Shown here one piece after another: positions 19,000 to 21,671 of a stretch of 64,000 nt of DNA; the first letter of the stretch is position 1, and the number at the start of each line of letters is the position of its first letter. Both the position numbers and the translations under genes were made by a program. Source of the DNA: Kutzneria chonburiensis (GTDB lineage Bacteria > Actinomycetota > Actinomycetes > Mycobacteriales > Pseudonocardiaceae); contig NZ_CP097263.1 of assembly GCF_028622115.1 (NCBI RefSeq), forward strand, positions 310,001 through 374,000, read 5' to 3'. The notes beneath the pieces are model-generated. The model was not told where the DNA came from. It ran no database searches and saw nothing but the letters and a program-made list of their open reading frames with translations.

Positions 19000-19033
19000 C
19001 GAGGGGGCGGCCCGCGATCGCGGGGACTGCGCC

Positions 19034-19284
19034 GGGCGACTGTGGTGGGGTGCGGGTGGTGGGTCGGCGTGCGGCGGGCGACTGTGGTGGGGTGCGGGTG
19101 GTGGGTCGGCGTGCGGCGGGCGACTGTGGCGGGGCGCGGGTGGTGGGTCGGCGTGCGGCGGGCGACTGTGGCGGGGCGCGGGTGGTGGGTCGGCGTGCGG
19201 CGGGCGACTGTGGCGGGGCGCGGGTGGTGGGTCGGCGTGCGGCGGGCGACTGCGGTGGGCGCGGGCGGTGGGTCGGCGTGTCGT
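19034..19284 (+). repeat. 42-bp G-rich tandem repeat, about six copies
   Basis: Units begin at 19034, 19076, 19118, 19160, 19202 and 19244, each starting GGGCGACTG. Copies 1-2 share one variant (TGTGGTGGGGTGCGGG) and copies 3-5 another (TGTGGCGGGGCGCGGG); copy 6 is degenerate. Each unit holds at least four G tracts of three or more, so every unit could form a quadruplex on the plus strand. Because 42 is a multiple of 3 the array is open in several frames, but no start, ribosome binding site or family supports translation. The gap 19000-19418 otherwise holds only more GC-skewed sequence. Confidence 0.9.
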
Positions 19285-19826: not shown

Positions 19827-19875
19827 AGGCCCAGGGTAAACCCGCGGCTGATTCCGGCTGGGTTGTGCCCCTTGT

Positions 19876-19911
19876 GGGTGGTGGGTGGCGTTTGGTGGGT
19901 GAGTGGGTGGG
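19876..19911 (+). other. potential G-quadruplex tract
   Basis: GGG runs at 19876, 19883, 19897, 19905 and 19909 with loops of 4, 11, 5 and 1 nt lie in the noncoding gap between the B-4DMT-like gene start (19826) and the left hairpin of the HNH element. Nothing else is seen in 19827-19956. Confidence 0.4.
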
Positions 19912-19956
19912 TGGCCGCGCCGCGCGGTTGGCGTTTGGGGGGATTTATTCGGTGTG

Positions 19957-20079
19957 GTCGCGTGGATTTGGTGTGGAGCCTCTGCGCGATGGCCCAAGGG
20001 CTAAAAGCGGGCAGGACGAGCCTGCCCTTGGCCTGTCAATTGTACGCCATCGCGCCCCTCCACACAAAATCCACGCGAC
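19957..20079 (+). repeat. left hairpin copy flanking the HNH gene
   Basis: The outer stem GTCGCGTGGATTT (19957-19969) pairs exactly with 20067-20079. Further in, GTGTGGAG pairs with CTCCACAC and GCGCGATGGC with GCCATCGCGC, and an apical GGGCAGG/CCTGCCC stem has a 5-nt loop (20016-20020). The whole can fold as one long interrupted hairpin. Its core is about 97% identical to the reverse complement of 21452-21570. Confidence 0.8.
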
Positions 20080-20163
20080 TGGTACGAGTTGCCGTGTTGT
20101 GGTGTGGCGGGAGGAAATAAAAGCCTTTCTGCTCGGCGGGATTCACCCGTTAGGGATTCGTGT

Positions 20164-20179
20164 TCGATCTTGTGTTCGA
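20164..20179 (+). promoter_or_regulatory. LexA/SOS-box-like sequence before the HNH gene
   Basis: TCGATCTTGTGTTCGA matches the actinobacterial SOS box TCGAAC-N4-GTTCGA at 11 of 12 fixed positions and ends 14 bp before the chosen ATG. An alternative reading is a direct repeat of GTGTTCGA (20160-20167 and 20172-20179). Confidence 0.45.
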
Positions 20180-20193
20180 GTATTCTCAGAAGT

Positions 20194-21336
20194 ATGGAAC
20201 TCACCTGCGAGATTGAGAACATGGAACCCATCGGGGCCATGTTCGATCTGATCGTCGGTGCGGATCCGGCGAGCCTGACCCAAGAAGACTTGGTCAATTT
20301 TGTGGGGGTGGCCCGGAAGGTGCGGGCCGTGTGTGAATGGGCCGAACATGAGGCCCTCAACCACATCGACGACCTCACCGAATTGGCAATGGCCACGAAG
20401 GTCTCGGAGCCGGCCCTGGCCCGCTCGCAAGAGATCGCCGCCGCCCTGGAGACTCACCCTGCGCTGGCGGAGCGGTTCCGCCGGGGAGAGATCGACCTCG
20501 CCCGGTTCGCGGCGGTCCACGAACGGACCCGCCACCTCTCGGACCCGGCCCAGGTCGCCGAAGTGGACCAGGCCCTGGCTGAGGAGGCCGCTGGTATGAC
20601 CCGGACGCAGGTGTGCCGCAAGGCCACCGCGCTGGTCGCGAAGGCCGATCCGGATGGTTATGAGCAGCGCTGCCACAAGGCCAAAGACGACCGGCAGGTC
20701 GGGCTCTCGGCCTTGCCCGACGGCATGGCCAAACTGGTGTGGATCCTCCCCGCCGCTGAGGCCCACCAGCTGTTCCAGCAGATCTGCGCCGACGCCAAGT
20801 CCCTACCGAAGGACGAGCGCACCACCGACCAGAAACGCTCCGATGTGCTCTGGGACCGTCTGCGGGGCAAGCACACCACCTGGAACGTCCGCACCTTCGT
20901 GACCATCTCCATGGAGACCCTGCTCGGGTTGACCAACGACCCCGGCCAGCTCGCCGGCTACGGCCCGATCGCGGCCGAGGCGGCCCGCGAGCTGGCCATG
21001 CACGGCCCATTCCGAGGGCTCCTGCTGGATGAGTACCAGCAGATCTCCGCGATCAGCACCGACACCTACCGGCCCACGGCGCTGATGAAGGAGACGTCCG
21101 TTGCTCGGGCCGGCGGGACCTGCACTGCCCCCGGCTGCACCCTGCCCATCCAGGAACACGACCACATCACCCCCTGGCCAGCGGGCCCCACCCAAGCGAC
21201 CAACCTGCAAGGGCTCTGCACCTGGCACCACCACCGCAAACACGACAACTACACAGTGACCCAGGATTCAGACGGCACCACCCACTGGATCACCCCGGCC
21301 GGCCGCCATCACATCACCCGCCCCCTGCGACACTAA
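20194..21336 (+). CDS. DUF222 / HNH endonuclease (13E12 repeat family)
   Basis: A 380-aa protein. The N-terminal and middle part (helical, Ala/Glu-rich) is DUF222. The C-terminal nuclease has a zinc-type HNH arrangement: CTAPGC, then HDHITPW and a closing LCTWHHHRKH. The family is thought to nick or cut DNA and in mycobacteria occurs as the REP13E12 repeats, some DNA-damage induced; biochemical targets are largely unknown. ATG 20194 has a weak ribosome binding site; ATG 20221 nine codons later is an alternative. It is flanked by inverted hairpins and preceded by an SOS-like box. No RuvC domain accompanies it. Confidence 0.85.
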   Translation: MELTCEIENMEPIGAMFDLIVGADPASLTQEDLVNFVGVARKVRAVCEWAEHEALNHIDDLTELAMATKVSEPALARSQEIAAALETHPALAERFRRGEIDLARFAAVHERTRHLSDPAQVAEVDQALAEEAAGMTRTQVCRKATALVAKADPDGYEQRCHKAKDDRQVGLSALPDGMAKLVWILPAAEAHQLFQQICADAKSLPKDERTTDQKRSDVLWDRLRGKHTTWNVRTFVTISMETLLGLTNDPGQLAGYGPIAAEAARELAMHGPFRGLLLDEYQQISAISTDTYRPTALMKETSVARAGGTCTAPGCTLPIQEHDHITPWPAGPTQATNLQGLCTWHHHRKHDNYTVTQDSDGTTHWITPAGRHHITRPLRH

Positions 21337-21451
21337 CCGGGGAACGGGCACCGGGAAAAGGACTTCCCGCAGCCACCACAAAAAGGGCGCACAGCGGGAG
21401 CAAAACCCAGCCACCGCCATTCCTTCACACCCCGATCGCCAACTCCCGAAT

Positions 21452-21570
21452 TGGGTCGATTTTGTGTGGAGGGGCGCGATGGCGTACAATTGACAGGCCA
21501 AGGGTAGGTTTGTCCTGCCCGCTTTTAGCCCTTGGGCCATCGCGCAGAGGCTCCACACCAAATCGACCCA
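21452..21570 (-). repeat. right hairpin copy flanking the HNH gene
   Basis: This is the inverted copy of 19957-20079. Its outer stem TGGGTCGATTT (21452-21462) pairs exactly with AAATCGACCCA (21560-21570), although these bases differ from the left copy's outer stem, so pairing is kept while sequence changes. The apical stem differs by one base, which reads as a G-U pair in RNA from the plus strand here. Confidence 0.8.
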
Positions 21571-21671
21571 TAACCCGAAGAACCCCGGGAAACTACGCAG
21601 CACGCGCGCAAAACCCAACCACCGCACAAACACAACCACCGCACAAACACCCCCAACCCTCCCGCACGTAA

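Follow-up and report, generated by a model that had tools for sequence, protein, structure and literature searches.

The window, by which we mean the whole stretch of 64,000 nucleotides from Kutzneria chonburiensis that was analysed, contained an open reading frame (20194..21336) spaced 114 and 115 bp from two hairpins that enclose it in inverted orientation. An initial annotation of this DNA had described two inverted flanks of ~120 bp around a centred gene, and gave both distances correctly. The inverted arms (19962-20074 and 21455-21567) were 113 nt long and 96% complementary, and each flank also formed a hairpin of its own, with 19957-19978 pairing with 20058-20079 on the left and 21452-21471 pairing with 21551-21570 on the right (95% paired in each case). 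When all four strands were folded, the hairpins had an MFE of -70 to -81 kcal/mol (z -6.8 to -8.1), and for each strand none of 200 shuffles reached an energy as low. The element comprised the following features:

19856..19956 (approximate limits), no strand assigned: G/T-rich left arm, with TTCGG at 19948-19952 adjoining the hairpin
19957..20079 (core 19962-20074), minus strand, the strand reading outward from the gene: left hairpin
20194..21336, plus strand: DUF222-HNH gene, 380 aa (DUF222 at 78 bits and an HNH PHROG profile)
20320..20655, plus strand: predicted ParB/Noc-like DNA-binding fold, residues 43-154
21079..21261, plus strand: HNH nuclease domain, residues 296-356
21452..21570 (core 21455-21567), plus strand, the strand reading outward from the gene: right hairpin
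21571..21668 (approximate limits), no strand assigned: A/C-rich right arm, with CCGAA at 21575-21579

The right arm also contained a CA-rich 17-nt tandem repeat (21607-21650). Elsewhere in the window, a 42-nt unit was repeated six times in tandem (96% match) at 19028-19280, close to the left side of the element, and intergenic DNA at 2746-2899 carried another palindromic repeat, a TGAGTGGCTCA-like word in both orientations.

The encoded protein matched PF02720 (DUF222) with 78 bits against a cut-off of 24.4. Its HNH domain was recognized by PHROG profiles (best E 4e-8); the Pfam HNH model gave no report for this protein, and neither PADLOC nor NCBIfam matched it. An IscB HNH profile matched residues 296-356 only (E 4e-4). 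Pfam found DUF222 alone in the single gene of the unit, with no Y1/HUH tyrosine transposase, and RuvC halves around the HNH domain were likewise absent from the Pfam result and from the IscB match, which was confined to those residues. A plain Foldseek search returned nothing significant (unspecific rows only). Two structural models predicted a ParB/Noc-like fold together with an IscB/McrA-like HNH fold, the ParB match lying under the caution level of the tool for helical folds. The protein would accordingly couple a DNA-binding part resembling ParB/Noc to an HNH part resembling IscB/McrA. ParB/Noc proteins also have a CTP-binding N-terminal domain and bind parS/NBS sites. Rfam gave no match in the window at the gathering threshold, and one chance-level match (E 1) lay inside the gene. 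With no domains beyond DUF222 and HNH and no Rfam match, the earlier speculation that the element might be guided by RNA was unsupported.

Copies, constraint and covariation of the hairpins

In the Kutzneria genome (10.4 Mb, one contig, with the window at 310001-374000), blastn identified 15 left and 15 right hairpins with a DUF222-HNH gene inside each pair, and as the arrangement recurs 15 times it cannot be ascribed to chance. The gene copies were dispersed, 15 of them at 94-100% alongside further relatives, and a further one-sided copy at 8.77 Mb had a left-type hairpin at a 78%-identical copy of the gene. Plasmid copies of the unit were not found by blastn. A covariance model gave 62 matches in the host genome; among the matches listed, these agreed with the 31 hairpin places above, each read on both strands. 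TTCGG outside the left hairpin and CCGAA outside the right were present in 15/15 copies. Averaged over these copies on the gene strand, G+T was ~0.80 in the 60 bp beyond the left hairpin, and A+C was ~0.80 in the first 60 bp beyond the right one.

The same architecture was found in four congeners (G001, G002, G003 and G006). At the loci examined, left hairpins were present at 15/15 in G003, 17/20 in G006 and 8/8 in G001, and right hairpins at 12/15, 13/20 and 6/8, respectively. It had been noted from the window that the outermost stems differ between left and right while each remains self-paired, and the other copies bore this out. The left stem was GCGTGGA on both arms in 13/15 host copies (the two remaining left ends being one change each from it), 14/15 in G003, 4/8 in G001 and 4/4 in G002; the right stem was GGGTCGA on both arms in 15/15 host copies and 6/6 in G001, and GGGCCGA in 10/12 in G003. 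G006 had GGGTGGA at both ends (left 15/17, right 11/13). Since stem types are fixed per end across copies, the compensatory difference between left and right is an old, maintained feature. The asymmetric internal loop beside the stem (CCTCTG) had its exact sequence in 98 or more of 106 hairpins. Five loci of G006 (L097, L119, L120, L124 and L127) had no 3' hairpin and shared a different, C-rich 3' tail, and L119 was missing the 5' hairpin too. Several DUF222 copies in G002 were decayed (stops, fragments), unlike the 15 open copies of the host (G000).

All 15 host genes were open, with a mean dS of 0.32 and dN/dS of 0.084 (105 pairs). Pairwise difference among the 15 units was 25.6% at fourfold sites of the gene, 2.9% at codon positions 1+2, 5.9% and 13.9% in the two spacers, 0.5% in left hairpins and 1.6% in right hairpins (0.5% without one copy), making left hairpins ~50 times less variable than fourfold sites. 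With edges as sharp as these, selection acting on the hairpin seems a better explanation of the conservation than a conversion tract. Copies also recombine, because near site pairs were less often incompatible than when permuted (0.605 versus 0.680, with 0/1000 permutations as low). At 4/15 loci, one or both flanks were shared with a fetched unit of another species. Proteins at the same site were 52-67% identical across species, roughly equal to their identity to the non-corresponding copies in the second genome (49-59% on average, at most 51-67%), and copies within the host genome were 95-96% identical. Same-site identity that is no better than other-site identity, combined with such similarity within the genome, indicates concerted evolution: within a genome, copies recombine and become homogenised.

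Covariation of the hairpins was strong. We evaluated a Kutzneria set of 65 of 91 distinct hairpins under two versions of the structure, which differ in the pairing of the apical stem: there, a GGGC block has two possible partners. Under these versions, 94.8% and 95.9% of cells remained paired, and 199 and 231 cells were doubly changed compared to 69 and 79 in shuffles (0/500 as high); displacing the partner 1 to 3 columns reduced pairing to 34-43%. For 34 hairpins from across the taxonomic family, 228 cells were doubly changed; shuffles gave 76, and sliding gave no more than 78. Two weaker measures on this set were less clear: 19/24 pairs were doubly changed versus 16.8 in shuffles (reached by 16/500), and pair types numbered 50 versus 46.7 (61/500). 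Unpaired motifs around TA(A/C)GCT and AGRGG were well conserved across the family. The compensatory change proposed from the two flanks of the window was thus confirmed in both of these larger alignments, and a selected fold, which may be one of DNA or of RNA, in a unit with structured ends, is supported. Quasipalindrome template switching exists in bacteria, and by copying changes from arm to arm it would yield stems that are self-paired yet varying, in which case the covariation would be unselected and the hairpins passive. Given the ~50-fold lower variability of left hairpins with its sharp edges, an asymmetric internal loop that is nearly always exact and unpaired motifs conserved throughout the family, we consider this origin very improbable.

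A further possibility is outward transcription from the unit, which would make the hairpins RNAs with a regulatory role or bound by the nuclease. The RNA-like covariation, the conserved unpaired motifs and a constant outward sense are in keeping with this, as is a lean of left-hairpin wobbles to the outward strand: in tree-based counts, wobble-creating events in left hairpins numbered 19 on the gene-antisense strand versus 2 on the other. Right hairpins, however, gave 6 versus 5, and unpaired sites of left hairpins, which serve as a mutational control, had matching substitutions at 24 versus 13, against which the left bias had p 0.06 by a Fisher test and 0.01 by a binomial test using the control ratio. 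Other genomes gave 12 versus 6 distinct events (p 0.24), the opposite strand folds equally well, and Rfam had no match, so that transcribed RNAs appear a distinctly unlikely explanation. The apical G-U pair on the plus strand of the right copy, previously taken as a hint of which strand may act as RNA, is real, being one of three C-to-T changes private to the right end in the window (1 of 15); as a strand hint it does not generalise, because right hairpins show no wobble bias. A single-stranded role of the hairpins is possible, and the strand preference is no more than suggestive.

Distribution, association with DUF222 and mobility

The hairpin family is real and largely limited to one taxonomic family. 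A model of Kutzneria hairpins (R2) matched 26/200 genomes of this family, in 10/46 genera; outside it, a broader model (R3) with stricter filters gave only two single marginal matches among 395 other genomes of the phylum. Recurrence of the hairpin near other DUF222 genes, on which the initial annotation had staked its proposal, was found, and hairpins are tied to DUF222-HNH genes in Kutzneria and two other genera. Hairpins adjacent to DUF222 occurred in three further genomes of the family (G005, G063 and G035). The hairpin lay 5' of the gene at 5/8 loci of G005 (loci picked by gene) and at 7/7 loci of G063 (two picked by gene, five by a nearby hairpin), where 9/10 hairpins among the matches listed (15 found) were adjacent to a gene. 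It lay 3' of the gene at 6/6 loci of G035 picked by a nearby hairpin, one of which had a second, 5' hairpin. At the loci of all three genomes, it was always the same strand of the hairpin that faced outward from the gene. G035 had 30 DUF222 hits, and 7/18 of its hairpins had one of them at <1 kb, for which a uniform model gives a chance of 4e-10; only 6/30 of those hits had a hairpin.

Outside type A, hairpins were often one-sided, and they also occurred without the gene. G190 had 92 hairpin matches and no DUF222 hits, and G171 had 31 hairpin matches and 11 DUF222 hits. Among hairpin-positive genomes outside Kutzneria, DUF222 was found in 17/20 and missing in 3/20 (G190 being one of these), and 11/16 hairpin-negative genomes had DUF222. 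No hairpin stood at the top-scoring DUF222 hits in G035 and G171 (L205 and L206; 0/2). The host also encodes a second DUF222 family (family B, ~32% identical; G000:C1 3643974, 4024080, 4388169, 9824981 and 10237793), and no hairpin was present at the four of its loci tested (0/4). DUF222 without hairpins (11/16 negative genomes; 24/30 hits in G035) and hairpins without DUF222 count against a strict link between the two. At eight loci of G171 (L153, L178, L182, L186, L190, L194, L198 and L202), hairpins sat inside arrays of a GGCGCGCC-like word with ~20 bp spacing. Three loci of G190 (L208, L210 and L211) had a REPIN-like arrangement, in which a few hundred bp separate the two hairpins of an inverted pair and nested GTCGCC/GGCGAC palindromes lie between them.

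Such patterns raise the alternative that the hairpins are independent REP- or MITE-like repeats moved by another protein, and that DUF222-HNH genes were captured beside or between them and travel as a composite. The dispersed gene-less hairpins (foremost in G190 and G171), the inverted hairpin pairs of G190, the one-sided association in G063, G005 and G035 and the genomes rich in DUF222 without a hairpin would all fit. Across 43 loci, however, no other gene recurred beside lone hairpins, leaving aside the repeats as such and loci that overlap at one place; in G035 and G063, hairpins and DUF222 coincide much more often than expected by chance, and left and right types are fixed in Kutzneria. 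We therefore regard independent repeats as possible and on balance unlikely.

At the locus in the window, the genes that flank the unit are ~1.8 kb apart in the host. Without the unit, the gap between the same genes was ~86 bp in G002, 175 bp in G006, 358 bp in G003 and 500 bp in G001; no clear counterpart of the locus was found in G004 or G005. As the site is empty in four congeners, insertion is supported. No junction or exact empty site was seen there, the intergenic DNA of the congeners being too diverged, and no target-site duplication was detected, the own flanks of units matching no better than swapped ones (2.2 versus 2.7). The suggestion of a mobile unit thus holds in part: judged from one locus that is empty in four congeners and from many dispersed copies, mobility is likely, and the search for empty sites in relatives succeeded without defining the exact ends.

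All 15 units lay within 2.01 Mb of a dif-like site, which has a probability of 6e-7 if placement is uniform. Of these, 12/15 were oriented against the replication fork (p 0.035), compared to 17/47 flanking genes and 13/52 genes in the window (crude caller). Units were also against the fork in G006 (18/27, p 0.12) and G003 (9/11, p 0.07), and type-A units overall were head-on in 39/53 cases (p 8e-4, the copies not all being independent). Hairpin-less family-B genes were alike, with 13/15 against the fork (5/5 in G000 and 8/10 in G006). The neighbouring genes of units showed no single convergent or divergent context under a crude GC3 gene caller. These positions could be read as DNA sites maintained by the host, with a protein of a ParB/Noc-like family acting at sites in the terminus area in chromosome organisation or terminus repair; the clustering, the orientation, the strong purifying selection and the predicted ParB/Noc-like fold are all compatible with such a role. 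For K. albida, however, the region of the chromosome distal to oriC is described as generally rich in acquired DNA (PMC4210621), and the clustering of units near the dif-like site may reflect only this. A flank was common with another fetched unit at only 4/15 sites, and family-B genes share the orientation (5/5) without a hairpin. We give host-maintained sites very little credence.

Interpretation and comparison with known systems

The unit occupies 15 places in the host genome with fixed left and right types, and its covarying hairpins are far more constrained than its gene. We postulate, with about an even chance of being right, that it is a multicopy unit resembling a mobile element, whose hairpins would be the recognition ends of its own nuclease. 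The predicted ParB/Noc-like domain of the encoded protein would bind the hairpin ends, and the HNH domain would nick or cut them, probably when extruded or single-stranded. Repair of the breaks from sister copies would then homogenise the family, with occasional copying of the whole unit or of a single hairpin into another intergenic site. On this view, the hairpins without a gene in relatives would either be non-autonomous derivatives or have outlasted genes since lost. Copies that are old, intact and strongly selected are unusual for a transposon and count against a mobile unit. A bolder version, which we think rather unlikely, is mobile DNA of a new class that depends on single strands: a ParB-like/HNH protein would replace the HUH transposase, recognise extruded hairpin ends on the lagging-strand template, move the unit and spawn gene-less hairpins, a system resembling REP/RAYT and built from unrelated parts within one actinobacterial family.

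A search of the open-access literature returned no description of a hairpin-ended DUF222-HNH unit, which appears to be repeated DNA of a type that is little known and probably mobile. Among its close parallels are the REP13E12/13E12 repeats of Mycobacterium tuberculosis, which similarly combine DUF222-HNH, several dispersed copies and frequent gene conversion (PMC13061034, PMC10589994). REP13E12 loci are listed among gene-conversion hotspots and described in the same source as lacking a defined biological function (PMC13061034). Flanking covarying hairpins are the feature established here for Kutzneria. A phage attachment site has been noted within REP13E12 copies. Many actinobacteria carry DUF222-HNH genes in high copy number (as many as ~50 hits per genome in this analysis), and for one branch of these proteins the structured cis element is a concrete candidate substrate.

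The IscB systems with omega RNA (HEARO) also place a related HNH domain beside a conserved structured sequence; in Kutzneria, only the HNH region matches IscB, Rfam has no match, and two inverted copies of the structure flank the gene. Like the Kutzneria unit, IS200/IS605 elements have secondary structures near both ends; they also show a replication-strand preference (PMC6006769), which the unit may share. The Kutzneria unit differs in having no TnpA and in ending in long inverted hairpins, and its single-strand preference is suggestive only. A further feature of IS200/IS605 and REP/RAYT systems is a guide tetranucleotide (GTAG/GTGG) 5' to the hairpin foot. REP/RAYT systems (REPtrons, REPINs) share inverted hairpins around a gene, with some hairpins dispersed alone, in intergenic DNA (PMC6006769). 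Their gene encodes an HUH tyrosine transposase, in contrast to the HNH and predicted ParB/Noc-like domains found here, and their hairpins are 21-65 nt long compared to ~120 nt in Kutzneria (PMC6006769). REPtrons are also said not to transpose as a unit (PMC6006769), whereas the Kutzneria unit is multicopy as a whole. The Kutzneria unit thus suggests a parallel to REP/RAYT systems that is built on another class of nuclease.
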